From Antedon mediterranea (Eukaryota; Echinodermata; Crinoidea; Comatulida; Antedonidae), in the NCBI RefSeq assembly GCF_964355755.1, contig NC_092672.1:18844501-18908500 (forward strand): a stretch of 64,000 nucleotides of DNA, in the 5' to 3' direction. Positions 1 through 61,476 of the stretch are shown one piece after another. How positions within the stretch are numbered: position 1 is the stretch's first letter; each line of letters begins with the position of its first letter. Below the pieces are notes generated by a model. That model had not been told where the DNA came from. It did no database searches and was given only the letters and a program-made list of their open reading frames with translations. The translations under genes and the position numbers were made by a program.

Positions 1-581
1 GATGGAGATTTAGTCCTACATTAAGCAGAGATCAGTATTTTGTAGATGAAACAGGTCAGCTTTTAACTCTAACAAATCCAACATTTCAACAGAATGGAAC
101 TACTGTAACTTGCCTGGCGGAAAATGAAGTTGGTGAAAATTCGTCAACAATTCGGTTACACGTTGGAAAGTCGAATAGTAATGAGAAAGCAAGTAATGCA
201 GATTCATCTAGAATTCAAAAGTCAAGTGAAACAATAGATTTATCATTGGATGTAATCATAATCATTGCTTCTGGTGTTGTTATCATTATTGTACTTGTTG
301 TTCCCGTATATCATTATTGTTTGTGTGGTAATGATAACACTACAATATTTGATTCTTTAGGAAAAGAAGTAATTCAACCGGAAGTATATTATGAGACAAG
401 AGAGGGAGTTATTTTAAGACATACAGTACAAGATCGTTCATTACCTCGTGTACCCCTACTACAGAAGTATATGGTCATTGGAGACACTCAACAGCTTCAC
501 AGGTTCCTAATCATCTTGAATCGCATAGTTATACTTATATTGACACAGAAAATGATTGATGTCAAAGTAAGGCCCCCGTAA
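1..581 (+). pseudogene. R0: 3' end of family A Ig receptor with frameshifted tail (partial)
   Basis: The gene is cut by the left window edge; its frame runs through position 3. Visible parts are most of Ig domain 3 (a C-x-A-E-N-E-V-G end-of-domain motif), the stalk, the TM helix and the proximal tail with VYYET and RSLPRVP. Compared with R1-R3 it has a 6-base in-frame deletion in the TM segment (VVLVPV becomes VVPV). It also has two extra bases at about 449-451, right after the RVP codons. The frameshift replaces the last ~35 tail residues with an unrelated 42-residue end stopping at 579-581, so the EVYGHW and YTYID tyrosines are lost. It could be a decaying copy or a signalling-altered receptor. 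The 3' flank matches that of R1. Confidence 0.85.
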
Positions 582-1890
582 GTTTAAAGTCATTAGACAC
601 AATTAATAGTTTCTTAATTCAAAATCAAAGAACTTAAACTACTGAGTATAGGCCTAAATCTACCACACATCTATAAATGGGAAATATTAATAATATATAT
701 CACTTACTAGAGGGTGTGTCACGTCACTTCTATCGCTCATCTATTTATAGTATACAGTACGGTTCTGTACTTTGTTTCCATCTAGTAGTCAATTTTAAAA
801 CATGTGTGTAAGTATTTACATGATTTAGAGAGGTTGTTTTTTTTGTGATAACTCATACAGTAGTAGCAGAAACAGAGAGAGAGAGAGCCGTAACTTTACA
901 CATATTTTAGATTAACGATCTTAGATTGTACAGATTAGCGTACTTGTTGGGTTCTAATTGACCAAAAGCTAATTTTCTAGGGTACAATTTCAGGTCAACA
1001 GCCAAGTGCTACTAATTTAGAAACTGCTATTATGTGTTCTTCGCTGTGGAAGGCCTCACTGAAGTCAGTTAAAACCAACTGTCTAAGAGGTTTGAATAAT
1101 CAATTTATAAGACTGTAAAAATGTTTAAGATTCAAGTAAAAGCTGATAAAATATTTACTGAGTACACTGTACATACAGTCTTTATTTTTTCGAAACTATT
1201 ACATTTAATTAACGTTTTTGTATGAAATTCGATTTGGATTCTTTTTCACTTTTGGCTGAATTGAATGGAATTGAGGGCTCTTTAAAATACAAACTAAATA
1301 AAAAGCAACAAATACATTGTGGCATTTCATACTTTATTAAAAATTAAGGGACTCTTTTGTGTTTGTGTATGCAATAACCACACTTACGTCTTTCCATTGT
1401 TTTATTTTGGAGATAAGGGTTTTTATTAGGTCTTCAAAATAAGCAATATATATATATATATATATATAGTAGCCTACTGCGGGCTTAGAACAATAAACAT
1501 CATTTTTAATAAGGAATTTACCTGACACAGACTGGTAGTTATCAAGGAGAAACATTTTAAATTTATTTAGGTTTCTTTTTATATTTGCCTTTTTGATATT
1601 TAAAACATGCTATACAATTAAATTATTGCTTTTAAAAATGTTATTAAGTAAAATAGTGCCACAAAAGAAACCATAAACAATACAAAAATCATATTTTAGC
1701 AATATTTTCATTATTTTAATGCTACAGCACTCAACTTAGAACCCTATACCGAGAATTAACACTTTGAAATTGGTATACCTACTTTACCATACACAGTACG
1801 GCTCAATTTGAACCAAACATGCTTTATTGACGCTGACTTAATTTAAATAATACAAATATGTAACAAGAAAAGTCACACATGTAGAGTACA
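582..1890. other. Family A intergenic spacer
   Basis: No gene seen. The spacer is shared with those before R2, R3 and R4; for example the stretch at 800-900 recurs near 9,850-9,940 and 18,655-18,740. It contains an (AG)n run near 876-890 and a (TA)n microsatellite at about 1,446-1,468. Confidence 0.7.
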
Positions 1891-1906
1891 GAAAACATAA
1901 ATTAGT
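1891..1906 (+). promoter_or_regulatory. Conserved -140 box of R1
   Basis: GAAAACATAAATTAGT, 146 bp before the R1 ATG. It is the family A form of a box found at -117 to -149 of every receptor gene here. The role is inferred from conserved position only. Confidence 0.45.
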
Positions 1907-2036
1907 AATTGTTTGGCCAGAAAAGAAAATCAGATACTGTATATTGAATAGTACCCGCATACTCTCATTGTGTGACAACCAGAAACGCAACAGCCAATTA
2001 CTATAGAAGTGTACTAGTATTTTTTACATCAACGAT

Positions 2037-3392
2037 ATGGAACTGTTCATTTTCTGTATGTTGTGTAGGATTGCATTATTGAATGTAGGCCTACGTACGT
2101 GCTTGGCATCAACAGATTTTCTAGAGGAACCCGAGGATGTTAAAATATTGTTTGCTACAGAACATAGCTTCAAGTGTACAGTTTCTACTAATAGTACTAC
2201 ACTAGGACATTCATTTTCCTGGCATAAAGACGGAATACCAATAGCAGACCAAGATAAAGGAAGATATTTTATTGTTACAAGCAACATTGTTAATATCGAT
2301 GTTTCTATTCTTAAAATTAAAAATGTTAGAACAGAAGATGAAGGATATTATTATTGTTCTGTTGTACAACTAAAAACAATGAAAACATTTTATTCTCGAC
2401 GTGCTATGTTAACAGTTAAATCGTTACCTCGGCCCATGTTTCCAGTATGCTTGCCTGCCAATAGCGTTGATGTTCTTGTTGGTACATCAATAAAACTGTC
2501 GTGTAGAAGTGAAAACGTTTTTCCTGAAGTAAAGTTAAAGTGGTACCAAAATAGGAATGAAATAACTGATGGTGTTCATACATTTAAAGACGATGAATAT
2601 GTCATGTTAGAGCTGCTAGTATCGGTGAAAAAAGAAGAAAATAATGATGTTTTTACTTGTCAACAAACTTCTGAATTAGTACCTAGAAACATTTCTACCT
2701 GTTCCGTGGGACCAATCACCGTTCGTTATAAACCTACTGTCATTATTCAACATACTGACCAGATTCTACCAGGTAGGGATTCTATACTATTCTGCCAAAC
2801 TTTTGCAAATCCACCGGTTACTAATTATAGATGGAGATTTAGTCCTACATTAAGCCGAGATCAGTATTTTGTAGATGAAACAGGTCAGCTTTTAACTCTA
2901 ACAAATCCAACATTTCAACAGAATGGAACTACTGTAACTTGCCTGGCGGAAAATGAAGTTGGTGACAATTCGTCAACAATTCGGTTACACGTTGGAAAGT
3001 CGAATATTAATGAGAAAGCAAGTAATGCAGATTCATCTGGAATTCAAAAGTCAAGTGAAACAATAGATTTATCATTGGATGTAATCATAATCATTGCTGC
3101 TGGTGTTGTTATCATTATTGTACTTGTTGTTCTGGTTCCCATATATCATTATTGTTTGTGTGGTAATGATAACACTATAATAGTTGATTCTTTAGGAAAA
3201 GAAGTAACTCAACCTGAAGTGTATTATGAGACAAGAGAGGGAGTTATTTTAAGACATACAGTACAAGATCGTTCATTACCTCGTGTACCTACTACAGAAG
3301 TATATGGTCATTGGAGACACTCAACAGCTTCACAGGTTCCTAATGATCTTGAATCACATAGTTATACATATATTGACACAGAAAATGATTGA
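2037..3392 (+). CDS. R1: family A three-Ig transmembrane receptor
   Basis: Intact single-exon type I membrane protein of 451 aa. The signal peptide is about 1-24. D1 has C47/C107, W62 and the D-E-G-Y-Y-Y-C motif. D2 has C156/C208 and W169, plus an extra pair, C138 and C222, that could form a second disulfide. D3 has C253/C302 and W266. A Ser/Asn-rich stalk (320-345) leads to the TM helix (about 348-368) and an 82-residue tail with VYYET, RSLPRVP, EVYGHW and a terminal YTYID. C373 and C375 just inside the membrane are possible palmitoylation sites. The ATG is chosen because it opens the signal peptide and is shared with R2 and R3. Ligand and partners are unknown; D2-D3 resemble the nectin/Kirrel-like adhesion class. 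The N-terminus differs from families B-D, while the tail is nearly the same. An AATAAA lies ~350 bp downstream. Confidence 0.93.
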   Translation: MELFIFCMLCRIALLNVGLRTCLASTDFLEEPEDVKILFATEHSFKCTVSTNSTTLGHSFSWHKDGIPIADQDKGRYFIVTSNIVNIDVSILKIKNVRTEDEGYYYCSVVQLKTMKTFYSRRAMLTVKSLPRPMFPVCLPANSVDVLVGTSIKLSCRSENVFPEVKLKWYQNRNEITDGVHTFKDDEYVMLELLVSVKKEENNDVFTCQQTSELVPRNISTCSVGPITVRYKPTVIIQHTDQILPGRDSILFCQTFANPPVTNYRWRFSPTLSRDQYFVDETGQLLTLTNPTFQQNGTTVTCLAENEVGDNSSTIRLHVGKSNINEKASNADSSGIQKSSETIDLSLDVIIIIAAGVVIIIVLVVLVPIYHYCLCGNDNTIIVDSLGKEVTQPEVYYETREGVILRHTVQDRSLPRVPTTEVYGHWRHSTASQVPNDLESHSYTYIDTEND

Positions 3393-5577: not shown

Positions 5578-6933
5578 ATGGAACTGTTCATTTTCTGTAT
5601 GTTGTGTAGGATTGCATTATTGAATGTAGGCCTACGTACGTGCTTGGCATCAACAGATTTTGTAGAGGAACCCGAGGATGTTAAAGTATTGTTTGCTACA
5701 GAACATAGATTCAAGTGTACAGTTTCTACTAATAGTACTATAATAAGACATTCATTTTCCTGGCATAAAGACGGAATACCAATAGCAGACCAAGATAAAG
5801 GAAGATATTTCATTGTTACAAGCAACATTGTTAATATCGATCTTTCTATTCTTAAAATTAAAAATGTTAAAACAGAAGATGAAGGATATTACTATTGTTC
5901 TGTTGTACAACTAAAAACAATGAAAACATTTAATTCTCGACGTGCAAGGTTGACAGTTAAATCGTTACCTAGGCACATGTTTCCAGTATGCTTGCATGCC
6001 GATAGCGTTGATGTTCTTGTTGGTACATCAATAAAACTGTCGTGTAAAAGTGAAAACGTTTTTCCTGAAGTAAACTTAAAGTGGTACCAAAATAGGAATG
6101 AAATAACTGATGGTGTTCATACATTTAAAGACGATGAATATGTCATGTTAGAACTGATATTATCTGTGAAAAAAGAAGAAAATAATGATGTTTTTACTTG
6201 TCAACAAACTTCTGAATTAGTACCTAGAAACATTTCTACCTGTTCCGTGGGACCAATCACCGTTCGTTATAAACCTACTGTCATTATTCAACATACTGAC
6301 CAGATTCTACCAGGTAGGGATTCTATACTATTCTGCCAAACTTTTGCAAATCCACCGGTTACTAATTATAGATGGAGATTTAGTCCTACATTAAGCAGAG
6401 ATCAGTATTTTGTAGATGAAACAGGTCAGCTTTTAACTCTAACAAATCCAACATTTCAACAGAATGGAACTACTGTAACTTGCCTGGCGGAAAATGAAGT
6501 TGGTGAAAATTCGTCAACAATTCGGTTACACGTTGGAAAGTCGAATATTAATGAGAAAGCAAGTAATGCAGATTCATCTGGAATTCAAAAGTCAAGTGAA
6601 ACCATAGATTTATCATTGGATGTAATCATAATCATCGCTGCTGGTGTTGTTATCATTATTGTACTTGTTGTTTTGGTTCCCGTATATCATTATTGTTTGT
6701 GTGGTAATGATAACACTATAATAGTTGATTCTTTAGGAAAAGAAGTAACTCAACCTGAAGTGTATTATGAGACAAGAGAAGGAGTTATTTTAAGACATAC
6801 AGTACAAGATCGTTCATTACCTCGTGTACCTACTACAGAAGTATATGGTCATTGGAGACACTCAACAGCTTCACAGGTTCCTAATGATCTTGAATCACAT
6901 AGTTATACTTATATCGACACCGAAAATGATTGA
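5578..6933 (+). CDS. R2: family A three-Ig transmembrane receptor
   Basis: Intact, 451 aa. It is the closest relative of R1, with the same signal peptide (1-24) and the same Cys/Trp positions in D1-D3. Differences cluster in D1 (for example V29 for L29, and IIRH against TLGH before the first tryptophan) and early D2 (HADSVD). From mid-D2 onward the two proteins are almost identical. The tail is complete, with Gly after the juxtamembrane CLC. The 3' flank is shared with R1 up to ~7,130. It is likely a recent tandem duplicate of R1, presenting a different D1 face on the same signalling module. Confidence 0.93.
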   Translation: MELFIFCMLCRIALLNVGLRTCLASTDFVEEPEDVKVLFATEHRFKCTVSTNSTIIRHSFSWHKDGIPIADQDKGRYFIVTSNIVNIDLSILKIKNVKTEDEGYYYCSVVQLKTMKTFNSRRARLTVKSLPRHMFPVCLHADSVDVLVGTSIKLSCKSENVFPEVNLKWYQNRNEITDGVHTFKDDEYVMLELILSVKKEENNDVFTCQQTSELVPRNISTCSVGPITVRYKPTVIIQHTDQILPGRDSILFCQTFANPPVTNYRWRFSPTLSRDQYFVDETGQLLTLTNPTFQQNGTTVTCLAENEVGENSSTIRLHVGKSNINEKASNADSSGIQKSSETIDLSLDVIIIIAAGVVIIIVLVVLVPVYHYCLCGNDNTIIVDSLGKEVTQPEVYYETREGVILRHTVQDRSLPRVPTTEVYGHWRHSTASQVPNDLESHSYTYIDTEND

Positions 6934-10867: not shown

Positions 10868-12223
10868 ATGGAACTGTTAATTTTCTGTATGTTGTGTAGG
10901 ATTGCATTATTGAATGTAGGCCTTCGTACGTGCTTGGCATCAACAAATTTTCTAGAGGAACCCGAGGATGTTAAAGTATTGTTTGGTACAAAACATAAAT
11001 TCAAGTGTACAGTTTCTAATAATGAAACTATTCTAAGACATTCATTTTCCTGGCATAAAGACGGAACACTTATATCAGATCAAGATGAAGGAAATTATTT
11101 TATTGTTACAAGCAATATCGTTAGTATTGATGTTTCTATTCTAAATATTAAATCTGTTAAAATAGAAGATGATGGATATTATTATTGTTCTGTTGTACAG
11201 TTGAAAACAATGAAAACATTTAATTCTCGACGTGCGAGGTTGACTGTTAAATCGTTACCTAGGCCCATGTTTCCCGTATGCTTGCCTGCCGACAGCGTTG
11301 ATGTTCTTGTCGGTACATCAATAAAACTATCATGTAAAAGTGAAAACGTTTTTCCTGAAGTAAACTTAAAGTGGTACCAAAATAGTAATGCAATAAATGA
11401 TGGTGTTCATACATTTAAAGACGATGAATATGTCATATTAGAACTGATATTATCTGTGAAAAAAGAAGAAAATAATGATATTTTTACTTGTCAACAAACT
11501 TCTGAATTAGTACCTAGAAACATTTCTAGCTGTTCCGTGGGACCAATCAACGTTCGTTATAAACCTACTGTCATTATTCAACATACTGACCAGATATTAC
11601 CAGGTAGGGATTCTATACTATTCTGTCAAACCTTTGCAAATCCACCGGTTACTAATTATATATGGAGATTTAGTCCTAAATTAAGCAGAGATCAATATTT
11701 TGTAGATGAAACAGGTCAGCTTTTAACTCTAACAAATCCAACATTTCAACAGAATGGAACTACTGTAACTTGCCTGGCGGAAAATGAAGTTGGTGACAAT
11801 TCGTCAACAATTCGGTTACACGTTGGAAAGTCGAATATTAATGAGAAAGCAAGTAATGCAGATTCATCTGGAATTCAAAAGTCAAGTGAAACCATAGATT
11901 TATCATTGGATGTAATCATAATCATTGCTGCTGGTGTTGTTATCATTATTGTACTTGTTGTTCTGGTTCCCGTATATCATTATTGTTTGTGTCGTAATGA
12001 TAACACTACAATAGTTGATTCTTTAGGAAAAGAAGTAACTCAACCTGAAGTTTATTATGAGACAAGAGAAGGAGTTATTTTAAGACATACAGTACAAGAT
12101 CGTTCATTACCTCGTGTACCTACTACAGAAGTATATGGTCATTGGAGACACTCAACAGCTTCACAGGTTCCTAATGATCTTGAATCACATAGTTATACTT
12201 ATATTGACACAGAAAATGATTGA
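10868..12223 (+). CDS. R3: family A three-Ig transmembrane receptor
   Basis: Intact, 451 aa, with the R1 layout. D1 is the most changed part: TKHKFKC, NNETILRH, ISDQDEGNYF and a D-D-G-Y-Y-Y-C motif. D2 has YQNSNAIND, shared with R4 rather than with R1 or R2. The CLC motif is followed by Arg, not Gly, and the next variable site is Thr; this R/T tail haplotype also occurs in family D. The 3' flank starts with ~90 bp shared with R4 (12,224-12,320) and then returns to the R1-type flank, so the gene end is itself a mosaic. Confidence 0.93.
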   Translation: MELLIFCMLCRIALLNVGLRTCLASTNFLEEPEDVKVLFGTKHKFKCTVSNNETILRHSFSWHKDGTLISDQDEGNYFIVTSNIVSIDVSILNIKSVKIEDDGYYYCSVVQLKTMKTFNSRRARLTVKSLPRPMFPVCLPADSVDVLVGTSIKLSCKSENVFPEVNLKWYQNSNAINDGVHTFKDDEYVILELILSVKKEENNDIFTCQQTSELVPRNISSCSVGPINVRYKPTVIIQHTDQILPGRDSILFCQTFANPPVTNYIWRFSPKLSRDQYFVDETGQLLTLTNPTFQQNGTTVTCLAENEVGDNSSTIRLHVGKSNINEKASNADSSGIQKSSETIDLSLDVIIIIAAGVVIIIVLVVLVPVYHYCLCRNDNTTIVDSLGKEVTQPEVYYETREGVILRHTVQDRSLPRVPTTEVYGHWRHSTASQVPNDLESHSYTYIDTEND

Positions 12224-12567: not shown

Positions 12568-12577
12568 TTGTGGATTT

Positions 12578-13885: not shown

Positions 13886-13889
13886 TCGG

Positions 13890-20211: not shown

Positions 20212-21576
20212 ATGAACCTTTTACGTGTCTCAATGTTTTGTACGATAATATTATTGAATATAGGCCTTACGTGCTTGGCTTCAGCAAAGGATTTTCTTGA
20301 GGAACCTGAGGATGTTAAAGTATTGTTTGCTACAGAACATAGATTCAAGTGTACAGTTTCTACTAATAGTACTATACTAAGACATTCATTTTCATGGGTC
20401 AAAGATGGTGTGCTCATAGAAGATCAAGATGATATATATGAAGGAAGATATTTTATTTTTACAAGCAATATTGTTAGCAATGACGTTTCTGTTCTAAATA
20501 TTAAAGCCGTTAAAATAGAAGATGAAGGGTATTATCATTGTTCTGTTGTACAGTTAAAAACAATGAAAACATTTGATTCTCGACGTGCGAGGTTGACAGT
20601 TAAATCGTTACCTAGGCCAATGTTTCCAGTATGCTTGCCTGCCGATAGCGTTGATGTTCTTGTTGGTACATCAATAAAACTCTCGTGTAAAAGTGAAAAC
20701 GTTTTTCCTGAAGTAAATTTAAAATGGTACCAAAATAGTAATGCAATAAATGATGGAGTTCATACATTTAAAGACGATGAATATGTCATATTAGAACTGA
20801 TATTATCTGTGAAAAAAGAAGAAAATAATGATGTTTTTACTTGTCAGCAAACTTCTGAATTAGTACCTAGAAACATTTCTAGCTGCTCTGTCGGACCAAT
20901 CACCGTTCGTTATAAACCTACTATCATTATTCAACATACTGACCAGATATTACCAGGTAGGGATTCTATACTTTTCTGCCAAACCTTTGCAAATCCGCCG
21001 GTTACTAATTATAAATGGATATTTAGTCCTAAATTAAACAGAGACCAGTATTTTGTAGATGAAACAGGTCAGCTTTTAACTCTAACAAATCCAACATTTC
21101 AACAGAATGGAACTACTGTAACTTGCCTGGCGGAAAATGAAGTTGGTGAAAATTCGTCAACAATTCGGTTACACATTGGAAAGTCGAATATTAATGAGAA
21201 AGCAAGTAATGCAGATTCATCTGGAATTCAAAAGTCAAGTGAAACCATAGATTTATCATTGGATGTAATCATAATCATTGCTGCTGGTGTCGTTATCATT
21301 ATTGTACTTGTTGTTCTGGTTCCCATATATCATTATTGTTTGTGTCGTAATGATAACAATATAATAGTTGATTCTTTAGGAAAAGAAGTAACTCAACCTG
21401 AAGTTTATTATGAGACAAGAGAGGGAGTTATTTTAAGACATACAGTACAAGATCGTTCGTTACCTCGTGTACCTACAACAGAAGTATATGGTCATTGGAG
21501 ACATTCAACAGCTTCACAGGTTCCTAATGATCTTGAATCACATAGTTATACTTATATTGACACAGAAAATGATTGA
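20212..21576 (+). CDS. R4: diverged family A three-Ig receptor
   Basis: Intact, 454 aa. The signal peptide differs from R1-R3 (starts MNLLRVSMFC). D1 has a three-residue insertion after EDQD (DIYEGRYF) and a Y-Y-H-C motif at the second cysteine. From D2 on it follows R3 closely (YQNSNAIND and NISSC), and the TM/tail has Arg after CLC and an N-I pair at the usual T-[TI] site. The start ATG and signal peptide are clear. The upstream region is diverged, but the 3' flank is shared with R3, so conversion has probably affected the 3' end more recently than the 5' end. Confidence 0.92.
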   Translation: MNLLRVSMFCTIILLNIGLTCLASAKDFLEEPEDVKVLFATEHRFKCTVSTNSTILRHSFSWVKDGVLIEDQDDIYEGRYFIFTSNIVSNDVSVLNIKAVKIEDEGYYHCSVVQLKTMKTFDSRRARLTVKSLPRPMFPVCLPADSVDVLVGTSIKLSCKSENVFPEVNLKWYQNSNAINDGVHTFKDDEYVILELILSVKKEENNDVFTCQQTSELVPRNISSCSVGPITVRYKPTIIIQHTDQILPGRDSILFCQTFANPPVTNYKWIFSPKLNRDQYFVDETGQLLTLTNPTFQQNGTTVTCLAENEVGENSSTIRLHIGKSNINEKASNADSSGIQKSSETIDLSLDVIIIIAAGVVIIIVLVVLVPIYHYCLCRNDNNIIVDSLGKEVTQPEVYYETREGVILRHTVQDRSLPRVPTTEVYGHWRHSTASQVPNDLESHSYTYIDTEND

Positions 21577-35439: not shown

Positions 35440-35556
35440 ACATTTACCTCGTGTATCTACTAAAGAAGTATATGGTCATTGAAGACACTCAACAGCTTCA
35501 CAGGTTCCTAATGATCTTGAATTACATAGTTTTACTTATATTGATAAATATTGATA
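35440..35556 (+). pseudogene. Orphan receptor tail fragment
   Basis: It matches only the last ~38 codons of the shared tail (from LPRV to the end). The tryptophan codon of EVYGHW is TGA, and the C-terminus is shortened. No TM or ectodomain lies directly upstream. Confidence 0.8.
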
Positions 35557-35839: not shown

Positions 35840-36388
35840 ATGACAATATTATTTGTTAACAGTAATTCTTACCTTCTTGTGTTGAAGCTATTAGTTTATA
35901 TATGAAAGAGAATCATTCTTTTTCGTTGTATTGTTAGTGGATTAAAGAATAAAAATCTTACATGGTTTGAAAATGGTGGACAGATATATATCAATGAAGA
36001 AGAATGACAAATGTCTGTAATCCACAGAAATTCATTCGAAAATTTAACTACCTTTGTTACTATAGATGCATTTTTATCAATGCGCTCTTATGTCATTGGA
36101 ATCTGGAAGAGTATTGTAAAGTTCACGTAAAACGGAATTACTGGTGTGTTCACTACCTTCATTGGTCGTCAATCAAAAGGTAACATTATCTTAGGTTCTA
36201 CAAAATGTTTCTGAAAACGTTACCACCTCCCCCTCCCTGTAATTTTACAATTTACTAGTAATTATCAAAATGTAAACTCTAGAATATCAACTGCAGAGAC
36301 AGAAACTTAGTAGAAGTTCAATTTAAATTGAACGCAAACAAATATGAAAATTGAGCTACTGTATATACGAATGTCATAGATTCGAGAT
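35840..36388 (+). pseudogene. Relic of a family D receptor (D1 and D2 only)
   Basis: It has the family D leader (ATG at 35,840 in the R11-type context), a decayed signal peptide, a D1 remnant (35,928-36,110) and a D2 remnant (36,140-36,388). Several stops and frameshifts are present, and D3, TM and tail are missing. The D1 remnant, with GGQIY, resembles R12 more than R11 or R13. It lies directly before the R9 promoter. Confidence 0.8.
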
Positions 36389-36578: not shown

Positions 36579-37919
36579 ATGGTGTTACCATTGAGTCTTA
36601 CGCTTACATTTTTTTTGGTTGTTTGTGACGCGTTTTTTCAGTTTATAGATGAACCTTCGAACGGACAAGTTGATCTAGGAAAAGACCATTCTTTGTCATG
36701 TGTTGTTAGTGGCTTATTGACTGAGCAGCTTACTTGGGTTAAAGATGGTAATCGAATACTTTTCAATAACGAAGAAGAATCACGGATATCTAAAGGTAAT
36801 AGTGAAATATCAACTGGAAATTTGACAACATTGGTTATTGACAATACATTGCGAAGTGATGCAGGTTTTTATCAATGCGTTGTTATATCGATGGAATCTG
36901 GAAGGATATTGAAAACATCACGTAACGCGGAATTAATTGTGCGTTCTTTACCTTCTTCAAAGTATCCACTTTGTTATCAATCAAAATCTGACATTCTTTT
37001 AGGATCTGTAATTTCAATGTCATGTGTTTCAGAGAAAGTTACCCCACATGTAACTTTAAAAATTACGCGTAATTCTCAAAATATAAATTCTGGAATGCCA
37101 ACACCAGGAACAGGGAACATGGTGACAGTTCAACTTACATTAAACGCAACGAAAAGAGACAATGGAGCAGTATACGAATGTCACCAGCATTCATCATTTG
37201 ATTCAAATTATCAGAAATCATGTTCAATGAAACCTCTGAATATACAATATAAACCTGAGATAAAGATACAACACACTAATCCAGTGTTACCTGGACGAGA
37301 GACGATTCTATTCTGCCAAACTTTTGCTAATCCACCTGTCTCACAATACCATTGGAAATTAGTGCCTCCAATAAAAGATGAAGATATTTTTGCTGACAAA
37401 ACTGGACAAACATTAAAACTGTTACGACCTTCAATAAAACATAGTGGAACAAATATAACATGTACTGCTACTAATGAAATTGGACAGATATCATCGTCTG
37501 TAGTATTAACAGTTTCTAATACTATAATTAACTCAGATAATTCGTATGAACCATCGAGTAATACAAACTTACACAATCCTGAGAAAGGAATAAGTTTATC
37601 ATTAGATGTTGTTATTATCATCGTTGCTGGTGTTGTTATTATTATTGTACTTGTTGTTCTGGTTCCCGTATATCATTATTGTTTGTGTCGTAATGATAAC
37701 ACTACAATAGTTGATTCTTTAGGAAAAGAAGTAACTCAACCGGAAGTATATTATGAGACAAGAGAGGGAGTTATTTTAAGACATACAGTACAAGATCGTT
37801 CATTACCTCGTGTACCTACTACAGAAGTATATGGTCATTGGAGACATTCAACAGCTTCACAGGTTCCTAATGATCTTGAATCACATAGTTATACTTATAT
37901 TGACACTGAAAATGATTGA
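36579..37919 (+). CDS. R9: family D three-Ig transmembrane receptor
   Basis: Intact, 446 aa. The signal peptide is about 1-18. D1 has C41/C100 and W53 with D-A-G-F-Y-Q-C. D2 has C149/C201 without tryptophan, and an extra pair C132/C215. D3 has C246/C295 and W259. The TM is about 344-363, followed by the shared tail with Arg after CLC and Thr at the next variable site. D1 carries unique changes (NRILFNNEEE). D3 and the stalk differ from R11-R14 at scattered sites (YHWKLVPP, NLHNPEKG). The 3' flank is shared with R14, and an AATAAA lies ~100 bp after the stop. Confidence 0.93.
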   Translation: MVLPLSLTLTFFLVVCDAFFQFIDEPSNGQVDLGKDHSLSCVVSGLLTEQLTWVKDGNRILFNNEEESRISKGNSEISTGNLTTLVIDNTLRSDAGFYQCVVISMESGRILKTSRNAELIVRSLPSSKYPLCYQSKSDILLGSVISMSCVSEKVTPHVTLKITRNSQNINSGMPTPGTGNMVTVQLTLNATKRDNGAVYECHQHSSFDSNYQKSCSMKPLNIQYKPEIKIQHTNPVLPGRETILFCQTFANPPVSQYHWKLVPPIKDEDIFADKTGQTLKLLRPSIKHSGTNITCTATNEIGQISSSVVLTVSNTIINSDNSYEPSSNTNLHNPEKGISLSLDVVIIIVAGVVIIIVLVVLVPVYHYCLCRNDNTTIVDSLGKEVTQPEVYYETREGVILRHTVQDRSLPRVPTTEVYGHWRHSTASQVPNDLESHSYTYIDTEND

Positions 37920-38356: not shown

Positions 38357-38983
38357 ATGAGTTCCATTTTAATTCTTTTTATTATATTATTGTCGCATTT
38401 GGAAAATTGTAAAGGAATATTTACAACAGAGCCTTTAGATGAAACCGTTAAAAAGGAAAAAATCATTGGTTTCTCTGTGTTGCTGATGGAATTGAAAGTG
38501 ATCAATCACTGCAATGGTTTCAAAATGGAAAAAGGTTGAACGAAAAACCAAGAATAACTATTCAGAATAATGAAAGTGGGACATATTATTATATAAACCA
38601 GATAGTACGCTAGTCCAGCACTGCCAGGTCGTGAGACAATTGTATTTTGTCAAACCTCTTCAAATCCACCTGTAACCTTGTACCGCTGGTTATTTGATAC
38701 GCAACTGTCTGAATACAAAATAGGATGTATCTGGAAAAAATTTAAAACTATTAAATCCAATCCATTAGATCCAGCAAACTGGAACTAATATAACCTATGT
38801 TGCCACAAACGAAGTAGGTTACGGGTCATCATCTATAAATTTGCATGTGTCATATAACCAGGTGGATAATATGGATCGACGACAGGTGATGGAAATCGTA
38901 ACGAATTTCAAGTAACAAACACGATATTGGTTTGTCATTGGATGTAATCTTAATAATGATAATAATAATCCGACTTTCTGTAG
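38357..38983 (+). pseudogene. Family B receptor pseudogene with internal deletions
   Basis: It starts like R5 (ATG 38,357, signal peptide SSILILFIIL). A one-base loss follows in the VKKG codons. After mid-D1 it jumps to the start of D3 (about 38,585), so the D1 end and all of D2 are gone. D3 is recognisable to ~38,850 with small indels. The TM is reduced to a few codons (38,928-38,970) and the tail is absent. The 3' flank is R6-type, so it derives from an R5/R6-like locus. Confidence 0.85.
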
Positions 38984-39885: not shown

Positions 39886-41217
39886 ATGAGAAGAAACGTT
39901 TTATTTTTGTTCTTATTATTATGTTTACACCATAGTAAGGCTACGATTGAATTCAAAGAGCAACCTTCTGACGGTCGCGTGGATCTTGGAAAGGATCATA
40001 CTTTTTCCTGTATAGTTAATGGTATGGATAATCAACAATATTTGGCTTGGTTAAAAGATGGAGTACTAATACGAACTCAGGAAGCTAGAATAACAATTGG
40101 ATATAGCAATATCAAGATTGGAAAATTAACAACTTTGACTTTAAATAAACTTTTAAAATCTGACAGGGGACGTTATCAATGTGTCGTTATATCAACTGAA
40201 ACAAATTCAATAGAGGAACGCTCATTGGAGGCTATACTTACAGTGTTATCTCAACCGTCATCGATATATCCACTGTGTTCTGGACATGAAGATAACATTG
40301 CCATTGGATCAGTTATAACAATTTCTTGTATTTCAGAACGTGTTGAACCTCCTGTAAATTTAACAATTTCTCGTAACATGAATATAGTTAAAAATGGTGT
40401 CTCGTTTGTAGAAAATGAAAAGTTACAAATGCTATTAAAAACAAGAAAAGAAGATAATCGAGCTATTTTCACATGCCATCAGACTTCACCACTAGCTCCC
40501 GAATCAGAATCTACGTGTTCTATTGGCCCGTTAAATGTTCAATATAAACCAGAAATACAGCTTCAATACACCAATCCTGTTATACCAGAAAGGGAGACAA
40601 TTTTATTTTGTCAGACATCGTCTAACCCACCTGTTGGGACTTATAATTGGAAAATTGAACCAAATTTTGCAAAAAGTGACTACAGTATTGATGAAACTGG
40701 ACAGGTACTAAAACTAATCAAACCTTCGATAGTGCACAACGGAACAAATATTACATGCACCGCTGTAAATAAAATCGGTAAATCATCATCAACCGTTACG
40801 ATATTAGTTGAATCTCCGAATATTTTAAAAAGTAATGAGCAAAATGGCAAACTACGAAATCAAAATTCAGGTAATAACATGACTGGAAAAAAATTATCAT
40901 TGGATGTTATCATCGTAATCGCTTCTGGTGTTGTTATCATTATTGTACTTGTTGTTCTGGTTCCCGTATATCATTATTGTTTGTGTGGTAATGATAACAC
41001 TATTATAGTTGATTCTTTAGGAAAAGAAGTAACTCAACCTGAAGTGTATTATGAGACAAGAGAGGGAGTTATTTTAAGACATACAGTACAAGATCGTTCA
41101 TTACCTCGTGTACCTACTACAGAAGTATATGGTCATTGGAGACACTCAACAGCTTCACAGGTTCCTAATGATCTTGAATCACATAGTTATACTTACATTG
41201 ACACTGAAAATGATTGA
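39886..41217 (+). CDS. R10: family C three-Ig transmembrane receptor
   Basis: Intact, 443 aa. It is the near-twin of R7. It is shorter by eight residues because of a shorter signal peptide (about 1-18, MRRNVLFLFLLLC...) and two small D1 gaps (TQEARITIGYSNIKIG). From mid-D1 to the end the protein is almost identical to R7, with I/P at the D3 start and the standard ILRHTV tail. D2 again lacks the tryptophan. The tail is Gly/Ile type. AATAAA is at about 41,273. R7 and R10 are separated by two family D genes and two relic classes, so block duplication or transposition within the array is implied. Confidence 0.93.
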   Translation: MRRNVLFLFLLLCLHHSKATIEFKEQPSDGRVDLGKDHTFSCIVNGMDNQQYLAWLKDGVLIRTQEARITIGYSNIKIGKLTTLTLNKLLKSDRGRYQCVVISTETNSIEERSLEAILTVLSQPSSIYPLCSGHEDNIAIGSVITISCISERVEPPVNLTISRNMNIVKNGVSFVENEKLQMLLKTRKEDNRAIFTCHQTSPLAPESESTCSIGPLNVQYKPEIQLQYTNPVIPERETILFCQTSSNPPVGTYNWKIEPNFAKSDYSIDETGQVLKLIKPSIVHNGTNITCTAVNKIGKSSSTVTILVESPNILKSNEQNGKLRNQNSGNNMTGKKLSLDVIIVIASGVVIIIVLVVLVPVYHYCLCGNDNTIIVDSLGKEVTQPEVYYETREGVILRHTVQDRSLPRVPTTEVYGHWRHSTASQVPNDLESHSYTYIDTEND

Positions 41218-41787
41218 TATCAAAGCATCTATAAGAGCAACAACACTGGTTCCGATTATTACACTTTTGCTAAATAAATTATTAAATTATTTACTTTATG
41301 TTGTTCTTGATATCGACATTTTATATGTATTATTTTGAAGGTATCATTCATTTTTAAGTATATGTTTCAAATGTTTTTCTTGTTGTCATGCTTGTTCTTT
41401 CAAGTATCATAATTCCTATTACATCTTCTATTGAATGGACATTTTAATTGATAGAAATTAAACACAACTTCCAATAGGAAAACATATATTACATTTCAAA
41501 TGATAAACAGGGTACATCAAGCAATTAAGGCTACGTGACTGTTAATTAGTGATCGACAGTTTTAGAATTATAATCCGATTCTTGGTATTGTGTCTAGATT
41601 TCTCCTATATCGTAGGAATATTCGGCAATACAACTTCACAAGTGTGTCACGTATATTGCCTATAGTATAGACAATAACCTAACACCTAACTACTGTAACC
41701 TTACATGATACAAGCACCAAATGTGATACACATGATATCTTATATTACTGAATATTCCTGATACAGGACAATTGTGAAGATACATAC
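41218..41787. other. R10 3' flank
   Basis: No gene; poly(A) signal near 41,273. Confidence 0.6.
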
Positions 41788-41986
41788 AATGATTCTTTAA
41801 GAAAAGAAGTAACTCAACCTGAAGTGTATTATGAAACAAGAGATGGAGTTATTTTAAGACATACAGTAAAGAGATCGTTCATTATCTTGTGTACCTACTA
41901 CAGAGGTATAGGGTCATTGGAGACACTCAACAGCTTCACATCTTGAATCACATAGTTATATTTACATTGACACTGAAAATGATTGA
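41788..41986 (+). pseudogene. Orphan receptor tail fragment
   Basis: It covers the shared tail from VDS to the C-terminus, with one inserted base in the QDRS region, a VYR-stop instead of VYGHW, and a deletion of the QVPND codons. No ectodomain is attached. Its 3' flank resembles that of the 35.4 kb tail fragment. Confidence 0.82.
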
Positions 41987-43001: not shown

Positions 43002-44351
43002 ATGAGCACTTTGTTAACAGTGATTCTTACATTGATTATGACAACGGGTTTTGTAATTTGTGACGGACCTATTACGTTTATAGATGAACCCATAAACGGA
43101 TATGTTGATATTGGAGAAGATCATTCTTTTTCTTGCATTGTTAGTGGGTTAATGAATGAGAAGCTTACATGGTATAAAGATGAAAGTCTGATGATGTTAA
43201 ATGAAGAAGAATCTAGAATATCTGAAGTCCAAAATGAAGTATCAATCGGAAATTTTACAACATTGATTATTGACAATACATTGCAAAGTGATACCGGTTT
43301 CTATCAATGTGTTGTTATATCATTATCGTATGGAGGAATATTGAAACGTTCTCGTAAAGCGGAATTAATTGTTCGTTCTTTACCTTCTCCAGAATATCCC
43401 CTTTGTCATCAATCAAAACCTGACACTCTGTTAGGTTCTACAATGTCAATGTCGTGTGTTTCTGAAAACGTTAACCCTCCTGTAACTTTACAATTTACAC
43501 GTAATTCTAAGAATGTGAACTCTGGAATACCAATGAAAGAGAAAGGAAACTTAGTAACAGTTCAACTTACAAAAAACACGACGAAAGATGATAATGGTGC
43601 AGTATACGAATGTCACCAGCATTCATCATTTGATTCAAGTTATCACAAATTATGTTCAATGAAACCTCTGAATATACAATATAAACCTGATATAAAGATA
43701 CAACACACTAATCCAGTGTTACCTGGACGAGAGACGATTCTATTCTGCCAAACATTTGCTAATCCACCGGTCTCACAATATCGTTGGACATTAGTGCCTC
43801 CAATAAAAGATGAAGATATTTTTGTAGACAAAACTGGACAAACATTAAAACTGTTACGACCTTCAATAGACCAAAGTGGAACAACTATAACATGTACTGC
43901 TGCTAATGAAATTGGACAGGTATCATCGTCTGTAGTATTAACAGTTTCAAATTCTATCATTAACTCAGATAATTTGTACGAACCATCGAGTAATACAAAC
44001 TTAAACAATTCCCAGAAAGGAATAAGTTTATCATTAGATGTTGTTATTATCATCGCAGCTGGTGTTGTTATCATTATTGTACTTGTTGTTCTGGTTCCCG
44101 TTTATCATTATTGTTTGTGTGGTAATGATAACACTATAATAGTTGATTCTTTAGGAAAAGAAGTAACTCAACCTGAAGTGTATTATGAGACAAGAGAGGG
44201 GGTTATTTTAAGACATACAGTACAAGATCGTTCGTTACCTCGTGTACCTACTACAGAAGTATATGGTCATTGGAGACACTCAACAGCTTCACAGGTTCCT
44301 AATGATCTTGAATCACATAGTTATACTTACATTGACACAGAAAATGATTGA
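43002..44351 (+). CDS. R11: family D three-Ig transmembrane receptor
   Basis: Intact, 449 aa. The signal peptide is about 1-20 (MSTLLTVILT...). D1 (SLMMLNEEESRISEVQ) is shared with R13, while D3, stalk, TM, tail and 3' flank are shared with R12. D2 lacks tryptophan and has KNTTKDDNGAVYEC. The tail has Gly after CLC and Ile at the next variable site, unlike R8, R9 and R14. It is the first unit of the receptor-LINE-spacer duplication. Antisense frames that look long here are shadows of the conserved sense sequence. Confidence 0.93.
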   Translation: MSTLLTVILTLIMTTGFVICDGPITFIDEPINGYVDIGEDHSFSCIVSGLMNEKLTWYKDESLMMLNEEESRISEVQNEVSIGNFTTLIIDNTLQSDTGFYQCVVISLSYGGILKRSRKAELIVRSLPSPEYPLCHQSKPDTLLGSTMSMSCVSENVNPPVTLQFTRNSKNVNSGIPMKEKGNLVTVQLTKNTTKDDNGAVYECHQHSSFDSSYHKLCSMKPLNIQYKPDIKIQHTNPVLPGRETILFCQTFANPPVSQYRWTLVPPIKDEDIFVDKTGQTLKLLRPSIDQSGTTITCTAANEIGQVSSSVVLTVSNSIINSDNLYEPSSNTNLNNSQKGISLSLDVVIIIAAGVVIIIVLVVLVPVYHYCLCGNDNTIIVDSLGKEVTQPEVYYETREGVILRHTVQDRSLPRVPTTEVYGHWRHSTASQVPNDLESHSYTYIDTEND

Positions 44352-49763: not shown

Positions 49764-51113
49764 ATGAGCACTTTGTTAACAGTGATTCATACATTGATTA
49801 TGACAACGGTTTGTGTAGTTTGTGACGGACCTATTACGTTTATAGATGAACCCATAAACGGATATGTTGATATTGGTGAGGACCACTCTTTGTTTTGTAT
49901 TGTTAGTGGATTAATTAATGAGAAGCTTACATGGTTTAAAGATGGTGGACAAATATATTTAAACGAAGAAGAATCACGAAAATCTGTTGTTCACAGTGAA
50001 AGATCATTAGGAAATTTAACAACACTGGTTATTACAGATGCTTCGCGACGTGATGCCGGTTTTTATCAATGTGTTGTTTTATCACTCAATTCTGCGAGAA
50101 TAATTGAAAGTTCACGTAAAGCGGAATTAATTGTGCGTTCTAAACCTTCTCCAGAGTATCCTCTTTGTCATCAATCAAAACCTGACACTCTGTTAGGTTC
50201 TACAATGTCAATGTCGTGTGTTTCTGAAAAGGTTAACCCTCCTGTAACTTTACAATTCACACGTAATTCTAAGAATATAAATTCTGGAATACCAATGACA
50301 AAGAAAGGAAACTTGGTAAAAGTTCAACTTACGTTAAACGCGACGAAAGGTGACAATTCAGCAGTTTACGAATGTCACCAGTATTCATCATTTGATTCAA
50401 ATGATCACAAATCATGTTCAATGAAACCTCTGAATATACAATATAAACCTGAGATAAAGATACAACACACTAATCCAGTGTTACCTGGACGAGAGACGAT
50501 TATATTCTGCCAAACATTTGCTAATCCACCTGTCTCACAATATCGTTGGACATTAGTGCCTCCAATAAAAGATGAAGATATTTTTGTAGACAAAACTGGA
50601 CAAACATTAAAACTGTTACGACCTTCAATAGACCAAAGTGGAACAACTATAACATGTACTGCTGCTAATGAAATTGGACAGGTATCATCGTCTGTAGTAT
50701 TAACAGTTTCAAATTCTATCATTAACTCAGATAATTTGTACGAACCATCGAGTAATACAAACTTAAACAATTCCCAGAAAGGAATAAGTTTATCATTAGA
50801 TGTTGTTATTATCATCGCAGCTGGTGTTGTTATCATTATTGTACTTGTTGTTCTGGTTCCCGTTTATCATTATTGTTTGTGTGGTAATGATAACACTATA
50901 ATAGTTGATTCTTTAGGAAAAGAAGTAACTCAACCTGAAGTGTATTATGAGACAAGAGAGGGGGTTATTTTAAGACATACAGTACAAGATCGTTCATTAC
51001 CTCGTGTACCTACTACAGAAGTATATGGTCATTGGAGACACTCAACAGCTTCACAGGTTCCTAATGATCTTGAATCACATAGTTATACTTACATTGACAC
51101 AGAAAATGATTGA
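49764..51113 (+). CDS. R12: family D three-Ig receptor, mosaic
   Basis: Intact, 449 aa from ATG 49,764. An in-frame ATG 39 bases upstream adds a basic stretch (RKRYSK) before the signal peptide; it is out of frame in R11 and R13, so the downstream start is preferred. Signal peptide about 1-20. D1 (GGQIYLNEEESRKSVVHSER) differs clearly from R11 and R13 and is closest to the relic at 35.9 kb. From mid-D2 to beyond the stop it matches R11 (Gly/Ile tail, LINE downstream). The upstream spacer matches R13. It therefore looks like a conversion or unequal-exchange product. Confidence 0.92.
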   Translation: MSTLLTVIHTLIMTTVCVVCDGPITFIDEPINGYVDIGEDHSLFCIVSGLINEKLTWFKDGGQIYLNEEESRKSVVHSERSLGNLTTLVITDASRRDAGFYQCVVLSLNSARIIESSRKAELIVRSKPSPEYPLCHQSKPDTLLGSTMSMSCVSEKVNPPVTLQFTRNSKNINSGIPMTKKGNLVKVQLTLNATKGDNSAVYECHQYSSFDSNDHKSCSMKPLNIQYKPEIKIQHTNPVLPGRETIIFCQTFANPPVSQYRWTLVPPIKDEDIFVDKTGQTLKLLRPSIDQSGTTITCTAANEIGQVSSSVVLTVSNSIINSDNLYEPSSNTNLNNSQKGISLSLDVVIIIAAGVVIIIVLVVLVPVYHYCLCGNDNTIIVDSLGKEVTQPEVYYETREGVILRHTVQDRSLPRVPTTEVYGHWRHSTASQVPNDLESHSYTYIDTEND

Positions 51114-57805: not shown

Positions 57806-57821
57806 GAGAAACACAACTTTG
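57806..57821 (+). promoter_or_regulatory. Conserved -140 box of R13
   Basis: GAGAAACACAACTTTG, 126 bp before the ATG; ATAATAG near 57,881. Confidence 0.48.
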
Positions 57822-57931
57822 TAATATACTGGTACAACGTCATGACCGATAGACTATTGAACAGTTCTGTAGGTACTGGCATAATAGCTTTGCATGATTC
57901 TGTACCTGTTCGTAAGAAATGATACAGTAAA

Positions 57932-59281
57932 ATGAGCACTTTGCTAACAGTGATTCTTACATTGATTATGACAACGGGTTGTGTAGTTTGTGACGGACCT
58001 ATTACGTTTATAGATGAACCCATAAACGGATATGTTGATATTGGAGAAGATCATTCTTTTTCTTGCATTGTTAGTGGGTTAATGAATGAGAAGCTTACAT
58101 GGTATAAAGATGAAAGTCTGATGATGTTAAATGAAGAAGAATCTAGAATATCTGAAGTCCAAAATGAAGTATCATTTGGAAATTTTACAACATTGGTTAT
58201 TGACAATACATTGCAAAGTGATACCGGTTTCTATCAATGTGTTGTTATATCATTAGCGTATGGAGGAATATTGAAACGTTCTCGTAAAGCGGAATTAATT
58301 GTTCGTTCTTTACCTTCTTCAGAATATCCCCTTTGTCATCAATCAAAACCTGACACTCTGTTAGGTTCTACAATGTCAATGTCATGTGTTTCTGAAAAGG
58401 TTACCCCACCTGTAACTTTACAATTTACACGTAATTCTAAAAGTACAAACTCTGGAATACCAATGCCAGAGGAAGGAAACTTGGTAACAGTTCAACTTAC
58501 AAAAAACACGACGAAAGATGATAATGGTGCAGTATACGAATGTCACCAGCATTCATCATTTGATTCAAATTATCACAAATCATGTTCAATGAAACCTCCG
58601 AATATACAATATAAACCTGAGATAAAGATACAACACACTAATCCAGTGTTACCTGGACGAGAGACGATTCTATTCTGCCAAACATTTGCTAATCCACCTG
58701 TCGCACAATACCGTTGGACATTAGTGCCTCCAATTAAAGATGAAGATATTTTTGTAGAAAAAACTGGACAAACATTAAAACTGTTACGACCTTTAATAAA
58801 ACAAAGTGGAACCAATATAACATGTACTGCTACTAATGAAATTGGACAGGTATCATCATCTGTTTTATTAACAGTTTCAAATACTATCATTAACTCAGAT
58901 AATTCGTACAAACCATCGAGTAATACCAACTTAAACAATTCTAAGAAAGGAATAAGTTTATCATTAGATGTTGTTATTATCATCGTTGCTGGTGTTGTTA
59001 TCATTATTGTACTTGTTGTTCTGGTTCCCGTATATCATTATTGTTTGTGTCGTAATGATAACACTATAATAGTTGATTCATTAGGAAAAGAAGTAACTCA
59101 ACCTGAAGTGTATTATGAGACAAGAGAGGGAGTTATTTTAAGACATACAGTACAAGATCGTTCATTACCTCGTGTACCTACTACAGAGGTATATGGACAT
59201 TGGAGACATTCGACAGCTTCACAGGTTCCTAATGATCTTGAATCACATAGTTATACCTATATTGACACAGAAAACGATTGA
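57932..59281 (+). CDS. R13: family D three-Ig transmembrane receptor
   Basis: Intact, 449 aa. Signal peptide and D1 are near-identical to R11 (SLMMLNEEESRISEVQ). D2 has its own changes (KSTNSGIPMPEEG). D3 has VAQYRW and EKTGQ, where relatives have VSQYRW and DKTGQ. The tail combines Arg after CLC with Ile at the next variable site, a combination not found elsewhere in family D. The 3' flank is different from R11/R12, with no LINE remnant, so the duplication block ends within this gene. AATAAA is at about 59,344. Confidence 0.93.
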   Translation: MSTLLTVILTLIMTTGCVVCDGPITFIDEPINGYVDIGEDHSFSCIVSGLMNEKLTWYKDESLMMLNEEESRISEVQNEVSFGNFTTLVIDNTLQSDTGFYQCVVISLAYGGILKRSRKAELIVRSLPSSEYPLCHQSKPDTLLGSTMSMSCVSEKVTPPVTLQFTRNSKSTNSGIPMPEEGNLVTVQLTKNTTKDDNGAVYECHQHSSFDSNYHKSCSMKPPNIQYKPEIKIQHTNPVLPGRETILFCQTFANPPVAQYRWTLVPPIKDEDIFVEKTGQTLKLLRPLIKQSGTNITCTATNEIGQVSSSVLLTVSNTIINSDNSYKPSSNTNLNNSKKGISLSLDVVIIIVAGVVIIIVLVVLVPVYHYCLCRNDNTIIVDSLGKEVTQPEVYYETREGVILRHTVQDRSLPRVPTTEVYGHWRHSTASQVPNDLESHSYTYIDTEND

Positions 59282-59990
59282 TGTCAAGGTACATAGCGAT
59301 CTAGGTTCCTGTATTTTTGTTACTGATCTTGAACAATAATAATTGAATAAATTGTGTTATTTGCACTAATAAATTATTGTCTATATTCGTAAAGCAGCAC
59401 ATTGATTTACTAATTGGCAGAGACAACCGGAAGCATTATACAGATGGTTTGATATTCTCTTTTATTTAGATTTATTAGCCCCAACCAGAATGTGTTTACG
59501 TTTTCATTCTGTGGTTCGTTGATGAATTTAAAGCAGCTATTACTAAGCAATAACTAACACATCCGACTTAGGGAAAAATGAACTGTGTTTAAATAAATAG
59601 AAATGAATGTCGTTCATCAATTTAATTTTATTCAATATTGTCAAAACTAACCAAATGCATGTTTTCACATGTAAATTGTTTAATCGTTTATTTTACATTA
59701 ACAAAACACAACAAAAATAAATGAATGAGTGTGCCTTAGAATTAGATTATTATTGTAAGATTATGAAAGCAAATTACATTTCAGCATCCTTTTAAATATC
59801 ACTTTAGTATATTTATGAATAATATATGTACAGCTTCTATTGAATTTATATTGTTAAATACCTCAACACAGTTTTCAAATTGGATTTAATTATTATATAC
59901 GTTTAAGATATATCGAAGAAATTTATAAAATCTTCTTTTGGGTATAGTTTATAAATTATGAAATAATGTTTTTCACAATATCTTAAAAAC
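59282..59990. other. R13-R14 intergenic
   Basis: AT-rich, no gene; R13 poly(A) signal near 59,344. Confidence 0.6.
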
Positions 59991-60006
59991 GAGAAACATA
60001 ACTTAT
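59991..60006 (+). promoter_or_regulatory. Conserved -140 box of R14
   Basis: GAGAAACATAACTTAT, 145 bp before the ATG; same variant (ACATAACTT) as R8. Confidence 0.46.
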
Positions 60007-60135
60007 AAATTAATAGGCACAAATTTGTACCATTATCTGAACATGTCTATGTTAATCTTATTTATGAATAAATAGCTAATAATCAGTTTCTGCATTAGCT
60101 TGTACCTGTTTATATAAAAATAAAAGATTTGAAAT

Positions 60136-61476
60136 ATGTTGTTATCTTTGAGTTTTGCGTTGGTTATAACACCGTTTTATGTTATTTGTGATGCGGTTAT
60201 TCAGTTTATAGATGAACCATTAAACGGACAAGCAGATCTTGGTGAGGACCACTCTTTGTATTGTGTCGTTAGTGGGTTAATTAATGAAGAGCTTACTTGG
60301 TTTAAAAATGGTGGATTGATAGCTTTTGTTGAAGACTCACGGATATCTAAAGGTAATAGTGAAATATCCACCGGAAATATAACAACATTGGTCATTGACA
60401 AAACATTGCGAAGTGATGCAGGCTTTTATCAATGTGTCGTTATATCATTGGAATCTGAGAGGGTATTAGAAAGTTCACGAAAAGCGGAATTAATTGTGCG
60501 TTCTGTTCCTTCTCTAGAATATCCCGTTTGTAATCAAACCAAAGGTGACATTTTATTGGGTTCTACTATATTAATTTCATGTGCTTCTGAAAAGGTTACC
60601 CCTCCTGTAACTTTACAATTTACACGTAATTCTAAAATTATAAACTCTGGAATACTAATGCAAGAGACAGGAAACTTAGTAAGAGTTCAATTTACGTTAC
60701 AGGCGACGAAAGATGACAATGGAGCTGTTTACGAATGTCACCAGTATTCATCATTTGATTTAAATTATCACAAATCATGTTCAATGAAACCTCTGAACAT
60801 ACAATATAAACCTGAGGTAAAGATACAACACACTAATCCAGTGTTACCTGGACGAGAGACGATTCTATTCTGCCAAACTTTTGCTAATCCACCTGTCTCA
60901 CAATACCGTTGGACATTAGTGCCTCCAATAAAAGATGAAGATATTTTTGTAGACAAAACTGGACAAACATTAAAACTGTTACGACCTTCAATAAAACAAA
61001 GTGGAACTACTATAACATGTACTGCTACTAATGAAATTGGACAGGTATCATCGTCTGTAGTATTAACAGTTTCAAATAATGTCATTAACTCAGATAATTC
61101 GTACGAACCATCGAGTAATACAAACTTAAACAATTCCCAGAAAGAAATAAGTTTATCATTAGATGTTGTTATTATCATCGCTGCTGGTGTTGTTATTATT
61201 ATTGTACTTGTTGTTCTGGTTCCCGTATATCATTATTGTTTGTGTCGTAATGATAACACTACAATAGTTGATTCTTTAGGAAAAGAAGTAACTCAACCTG
61301 AAGTTTATTATGAGACAAGAGAGGGAGTTATTTTAAGACATACAGTACAAGATCGTTCATTACCTCGTGTACCTACTACAGAAGTATATGGTCATTGGAG
61401 ACACTCAACAGCTTCACAGGTTCCTAATGATCTTGAATCACATAGTTATACTTATATTGATACTGAAAATGACTGA
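60136..61476 (+). CDS. R14: family D three-Ig transmembrane receptor
   Basis: Intact, 446 aa. The signal peptide is about 1-19 (ends VICDA). D1 is distinct (GGLIAFVEDSRISKGNSEIS), sharing the SRISKGNSEIS block with R9. D2 lacks tryptophan and has QFTLQATKDDNGAVYEC. D3 and stalk match R11/R12 (QYRWTLVPP, NSQKEISL). The tail is Arg/Thr type. The 3' flank ('gatttcggggtatatggc') is R9-type, so R9 and R14 look like sister loci at both ends of the gene despite lying 23 kb apart. AATAAA-like signals are near 61,587. Confidence 0.93.
   Translation: MLLSLSFALVITPFYVICDAVIQFIDEPLNGQADLGEDHSLYCVVSGLINEELTWFKNGGLIAFVEDSRISKGNSEISTGNITTLVIDKTLRSDAGFYQCVVISLESERVLESSRKAELIVRSVPSLEYPVCNQTKGDILLGSTILISCASEKVTPPVTLQFTRNSKIINSGILMQETGNLVRVQFTLQATKDDNGAVYECHQYSSFDLNYHKSCSMKPLNIQYKPEVKIQHTNPVLPGRETILFCQTFANPPVSQYRWTLVPPIKDEDIFVDKTGQTLKLLRPSIKQSGTTITCTATNEIGQVSSSVVLTVSNNVINSDNSYEPSSNTNLNNSQKEISLSLDVVIIIAAGVVIIIVLVVLVPVYHYCLCRNDNTTIVDSLGKEVTQPEVYYETREGVILRHTVQDRSLPRVPTTEVYGHWRHSTASQVPNDLESHSYTYIDTEND

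Follow-up and report, generated by a model that had tools for sequence, protein, structure and literature searches.

The analyzed window (64,000 nt; C3:18844501-18908500; GC content 30–36%) in the 354-Mb genome of the crinoid Antedon mediterranea carries an array of receptor genes in one orientation (Table 1). Thirteen intact single-ORF genes, each encoding a signal peptide, three Ig domains, a transmembrane (TM) helix, and a cytoplasmic tail, lie on the forward strand where the first-pass annotation had placed them. Also borne out are a D-type copy interrupted by one in-frame TGA codon and four relic loci on the same strand as the intact genes. A left-edge locus, listed as partial, does exist, but it is in fact a frameshifted pseudogene; its upstream half, beyond the window, is split into several frames. 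As originally proposed, four ectodomain families are combined with one constant TM/tail: A (g01–g04), B (g05, g06), C (g07, g09), and D (g08, g10–g13).

The window also contains reverse-transcriptase frames, with RVT_1 matched by Pfam in 44537-45070 and 22093-22851. Those adjacent to g10 and g11 each begin 186 bp past the stop codon of the gene, and they are copies from one segmental duplication. Another frame, without a Pfam match, has a YIGETGR-type motif that recalls GIY-YIG/Penelope elements.

Table 1. Features of the window (positions within the window), family clusters in the genome (chromosomal positions), and a member of a second Ig family. Cluster dS values are medians computed over 88 genes, in the order Ig1 / Ig2 / Ig3 / TM+tail.
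Feature	Position	Strand	Remarks
Frameshifted pseudogene, A-type (Ig3, TM, tail)	3..556	+	frame change in tail near 452-470
g01, family A	2037..3392	+	451 aa; SP-Ig1-Ig2-Ig3-TM-tail
Homogenized TM + cytoplasmic tail cassette, example in g01	3075..3392	+	same ~105-codon segment terminates every intact copy
g02, family A	5578..6933	+	451 aa
g03, family A	10868..12223	+	451 aa
Frame with YIGETGR-type motif	12578-13114	-	
g04, family A	20212..21576	+	454 aa
Reverse-transcriptase frame	22090-22851	-	
g05, family B	23781..25112	+	443 aa; start refined to 23781
g06, family B	26222..27550	+	442 aa; start refined to 26222
g07, family C	30538..31893	+	451 aa
D-type nonsense copy	32863..34209	+	TGA 33808-33810 before stalk; frame otherwise open to tail end
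Relic, tail	35393..35545	+	
Relic, Ig1-Ig2	35927..36357	+	frame-broken
g08, family D	36579..37919	+	446 aa
Relic, B-like fragments	38396..38911	+	
g09, family C	39886..41217	+	443 aa
Relic, tail	41782..41983	+	frameshifted
g10, family D	43002..44351	+	449 aa; mosaic, Ig1 like g12, 3' end/flank like g11
Reverse-transcriptase frame	44537-45584	+	
g11, family D	49764..51113	+	449 aa; start refined to 49764
Reverse-transcriptase frame	51299-52742	+	
g12, family D	57932..59281	+	449 aa
g13, family D	60136..61476	+	446 aa
Cluster alpha (includes window)	C3 18.83-18.914 Mb	+	16 intact; dS 1.42 / 1.51 / 1.62 / 0.16
Cluster beta	C3 18.73-18.76 Mb	-	15 intact; dS 2.07 / 1.50 / 1.61 / 0.14
Cluster gamma	C3 18.766-18.785 Mb	+	9 intact; dS 1.35 / 1.06 / 0.20 / 0.09
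Cluster delta	C3 18.70-18.718 Mb	-	10 intact; dS 1.09 / 0.14 / 0.09 / 0.11
Cluster epsilon	C3 11873680-11903608 (11.87-11.90 Mb)	+	18 intact; dS 1.33 / 0.82 / 0.71 / 0.29
Dispersed-family member L105	3015-7061 (within C5:20705200-20713000)	-	

Ectodomain fold and tail motifs

In the six window proteins scanned with Pfam, the Ig_3 and I-set matches are far above the cut-off, and no sushi domain is found. These proteins also differ from FREPs and VCBPs, as the same scan detects no fibrinogen or chitin-binding domain and the proteins end in a TM helix and a tail. The six cysteines of Ig1–Ig3, corresponding to the B–F disulfides of the Ig superfamily, are kept in 88/88 genes read genome-wide, as is one tail tyrosine; therefore, the pattern is far beyond chance. 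A second cysteine pair in Ig2 (C138 and C222 of g01), present in 86/88 genes, suggests an extra disulfide.

In the AlphaFold2 model, the three Ig domains are predicted with confidence (pLDDT mostly above 90), residues 347-378 form the helix of a single TM segment, and the tail is disordered. The nearest solved ectodomains are D1–D3 of nectins and nectin-like proteins (nectin-1 TMt 0.70–0.77 in Foldseek; 3u82_B with Z 17.5 and rmsd 2.8 over 270 residues), followed by LRIG1, titin, SYG (SYG-2/Rst), DIP, and SIRP (2wng, Z 15.3). The three-Ig fold of nectins is thus present, a weak indication, since this fold is common to many IgSF proteins. These matches point to an adhesion-like architecture of three Ig domains, without making the family a nectin.

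The tail usually comprises about 65–115 residues, with one of 185, and has the consensus IAQPDVYFEPKD...W.RS.G.QVP. The invariant tyrosine (Y396 of g01) occurs in the context QPDVYFEPKD or QPEVYYETRE, and Q433 is kept in 87/88 tails. The motif P[DE][VI]YFEP has 51 matches in the genome, 50 of them on C3, compared to 0 for the reversed control; the lone match elsewhere, on C8, has no frame and is attributed to chance. Another tyrosine, near the C-terminus, is present in 76/88 genes, usually as YxEI/V of the YxxI/V/L class and as YTYI in alpha. In epsilon, it is replaced by asparagine in 11/11 genes read, which perhaps changes the signalling output. We take YxxP and YxEI to resemble Crk/Nck-type and Src-type SH2 ligands, respectively.

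The canonical ITIM (S/I/V/LxYxxI/V/L) is absent from the window tail tested, which reads HSYTYI, with no S/I/V/L at position -2. ITIM-like SxYxxI/V near the C-terminus is found in only about 12 single genes, and the clustered genes have no canonical ITIM. The ITAM pattern (YxxL/I x6-12 YxxL/I) occurs in 1/88 tails, and the tails of the window do not follow the canonical form. All 13 window genes end in TEND or TDND, and not in the afadin-binding E/A-x-Y-V. Seven single genes (L055, L059, L060, L072, L076, L080, L103), unlike the clustered ones, end in x-Y-V/I, resembling the nectin/afadin PDZ ligands.

Single-exon structure and genomic distribution

Using one window gene, two relatives, and then the tail alone as queries, we found at least 95 intact family genes in the genome, 93 of them on C3 (a tally over the search tables, with the best candidates scored). 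Five clusters were identified, and about 27 scattered single genes lie outside them, approximately 25 on C3 and two on C10. The alpha cluster overruns the window, starting 13.5 kb to the left and ending 5.9 kb to the right. The genes multiply by tandem duplication within strand-coherent clusters, in agreement with the local expansion suggested earlier.

In all 88 genes read, a single frame stays open from the ATG to the stop codon, which supports the single-exon structure initially reported for the window. All 94 candidates from the tail-only search were scored, yielding 93 matches, each within a frame of 429–536 aa except for the TGA pseudogene and one relic; this search of the genome revealed no intron-separated tail exon and no intron-bearing parent. 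The frames of the 150 best Ig_3 matches in the genome have a median length of 122 aa, and 127/150 are at most 220 aa. The single-exon structure of the family appears to be real and, because other Ig domains there occupy such short frames, exceptional in its genome. Combined with the lack of an intron-separated tail exon in the genome search, the short frames elsewhere point to a founder that would have lost its introns, or never had them, before the family radiation. A retrogene and intron loss both fit such a founder.

A second, dispersed family of single-frame Ig genes comprises about 10 frames on C1, C5, C6, C9, and C10, each with a strong Ig_3 match. Most of these frames are 1342–1377 aa long, the shortest being 747 aa. 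The N-terminal part of the L105 protein (1348 aa) is long, and the protein's two Ig-like domains lie in the C-terminal third. This family is apparently unrelated to that of the window. Ig_3 matches are also dense, in short frames, in the regions C8:4.70–5.78 Mb and C8:0.49–1.92 Mb, which represent other Ig gene expansions, apparently intron-bearing.

Variable and constant parts of the genes

Between the ectodomain families of the window, dS for Ig1–Ig3 is about 1.2 or more and often saturated, whereas for the cytoplasmic tail it is 0.12–0.16, approximately the same as within families. The place where the variable part gives way to the constant one depends on the cluster: alpha and beta have this border at the TM, as does epsilon with a less sharp transition; gamma has it near the Ig2 end, and delta at the Ig1/Ig2 hinge. 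In alpha, the final 60 nt of the coding sequence are 95% identical and the following 60 nt are 32% identical, and thus the homogeneity ends at the stop codon. Both the 5' and 3' flanks are near background, diverged like the ectodomain (medians 0.43–0.58). In the single genes, tail divergence equals ectodomain divergence; therefore, the low dS of tails characterizes the clusters and does not stem from the tail code. This is the layout of a variable/constant multigene receptor, with diverse 5' domains and a homogenized 3' part.

The tails within clusters are kept alike by gene conversion, since the ectodomains are saturated at synonymous sites, the tails have low dS, and the flanks are unrelated. 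With ectodomain dS above 1.2 between families, these observations show that the likeness of the tails is no leftover of recent origin. It is gene conversion that gives the variable/constant design inside one exon. Every cluster forms a single clade in the ectodomain tree as well as in the tail tree, and alpha and beta are sisters; the tail clades mean that homogenization occurs inside clusters. Run tests at third codon positions, which can be inflated by mutation-rate differences along the gene, yield significant common tracts, mostly in tails but also within Ig1–Ig3. An Ig1 segment of approximately 300 bp has moved between g10, g11, and g12. Identity between g10 and g11 is 98–100% in Ig3, the stalk, the tail, and the 3' flank, where it extends beyond 1.2 kb and includes the same LINE; g11 and g12 are alike in the 5' flank (95%), whereas Ig1 of g10 is 98.7% identical to that of g12 and only 79% to that of g11.

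Crossing-over is disfavored as the main homogenizer, as the 3' flanks do not accompany the tails. Another scenario dispenses with conversion and treats the genes as recent tandem duplicates with hypermutated or relaxed 5' halves. It likewise predicts similar tails and divergent ectodomains, but we consider it very improbable, given that divergence in both flanks matches that of the ectodomain, that synonymous sites are saturated, that the border shifts from cluster to cluster, and that Ig1 of g10 matches g12 while the flanks do not. Recent duplication with hypermutation is rejected because the flanks are unrelated. The array, larger than first claimed, is thus part of a receptor family of variable/constant layout that gene conversion maintains.

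Close pairs give w values of 0.44 for Ig1, 0.38 for both Ig2 and Ig3, and 0.13 for TM+tail. The tail is kept by selection, judging from w of about 0.13 against 0.44 in Ig1; among the Ig domains, Ig1 shows the highest value. The top local w, nominally 1.19, is at the Ig1 B–C loop. Pervasive positive selection is unsupported, as w is below 1 in all domains.

Candidate function and known receptor systems

Judging from the sequences, a germline-encoded family of recognition receptors, with a role in defense or self/non-self recognition, is the most likely explanation (probability about 0.6). The tail tyrosines, the highest w in Ig1, the conversion mosaics, and the single frames speak for it. Against it are w below 1 in all domains, the lack of a canonical ITIM in the clustered genes, and the best solved-structure matches, which are adhesion molecules; the Ig fold, however, is poorly diagnostic. 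The membrane-distal Ig1, or the whole ectodomain in alpha and beta, would bind ligands that differ from receptor to receptor and are carried by microbes or by other cells. Src-type kinases would then phosphorylate two tail tyrosines, the invariant one (YFEP or YYxT) and the second one that most tails carry (YxxI/V/L), and the phosphorylated tyrosines would recruit SH2 adaptors. Many specificities would thereby feed one conserved output. Gene conversion homogenizes the 3' part per cluster, sets the place of the border, and moves Ig1 segments between neighbors. The receptors would most likely serve in defense or self/non-self recognition in coelomocyte-like cells.

The main rival, possible but clearly less probable, is a cell-identity or adhesion code similar to clustered protocadherins, Dpr/DIP, or nectins, in which homophilic or heterophilic tags share a common cytoplasmic output in the nervous system or epithelia. 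The top structural matches, being ectodomains of nectin/necl, SYG-2/Rst, and DIP, agree with such a code, as do the nectin-like ends of the seven single genes and the protocadherin precedent of a variable ectodomain paired with a conversion-homogenized 3' part. However, the turnover of pseudogenes and relics, the Ig1 swaps, and Ig1 being the fastest Ig domain better fit changing ligands, and no window gene has the PDZ-type end. A third reading, an unlikely one, is that sexual conflict has diversified receptors for recognition between gametes or in reproduction. Such receptors usually evolve fast at the N-terminus and lie in tandem arrays, yet a family of some 95 genes whose signalling tails keep their tyrosines is large for gamete adhesion. 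Least probable of all, the frames could be long exons of bigger spliced genes or mostly non-functional copies. Against this reading stand the purifying selection on the tail and the extent of each frame, which opens with a predicted signal peptide and closes at a conserved end and a stop codon, with polyA-like signals downstream.

A recognition-receptor family of this kind shares features with several known systems. The nectin/CADM/PVR proteins likewise have three Ig domains in a similar arrangement, a type I TM segment, and a short tail. Nectins, however, are few and intron-bearing, and their C-terminus is an afadin PDZ ligand, absent from the window genes, whereas this family, at 18–22% identity, numbers about 95 genes, each a single exon with tyrosines in the encoded tail. 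The intronless TLRs of sea urchins provide an ambulacrarian example of a large, tandem, single-exon family with a variable ectodomain and a conserved signalling part, but these are LRR-TIR proteins without Ig domains or a tyrosine tail. Clustered protocadherins have large uninterrupted variable coding units in tandem and a conversion-homogenized membrane-proximal part. They differ in the cadherin fold and in a constant region joined by splicing, while in the window family each exon contains its own constant part.

Among Ig receptors, LILR, KIR, and SIRP are likewise clustered multi-Ig proteins with tyrosine tails, and SIRP-alpha also has three Ig domains; these families are multi-exon, follow ITIM/ITAM-adaptor logic, and have no specific sequence link to the window family. 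Hydractinia Alr is a type I Ig receptor family in a recognition complex, but is multi-exon and cnidarian. The Botryllus FcoR proteins are Ig receptors with tyrosine motifs (ITIM, hemITAM, and the core YxxI/L/V) encoded in a self/non-self locus, with a sushi domain between the Ig domains and alternative splicing (PMC12065747); the sushi domain and the lack of a single-exon structure distinguish them from the window family. In the literature searched, whose coverage was partial, we found no description of such a family or of such receptors in crinoids.

By what means animals without rearranging receptors come to link many specificities to a single output is an open question, and much of the answer can here be read from the germline: single-exon genes, sharp cluster-specific conversion borders, and a traceable Ig1 swap. 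We give about even odds to a new route to variable/constant receptors, by which, in an invertebrate deuterostome repertoire of about 95 single-exon Ig receptors, biased gene conversion, and not splicing or somatic rearrangement, enforces the constant signalling region and exchanges Ig1, with a cluster-specific border. Requiring no splicing, the family is a compact and tractable test case of how conversion diversifies receptors in ambulacrarian deuterostomes, and the array is a strong candidate for an immune or allorecognition locus in crinoids.

As to genome context, C2 has a Hox cluster of ten genes, ordered Hox1 through Hox11/13 and including Hox4, a Hox6-like gene, Hox9/10, and the deuterostome posterior genes, the names being our presumptive reading of the homeodomains. 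The same ten-gene order was described in the feather star Anneissia (GC content 33.2%), and the loss of Hox4 or Hox6 in other echinoderms is lineage-specific (PMC7351957).
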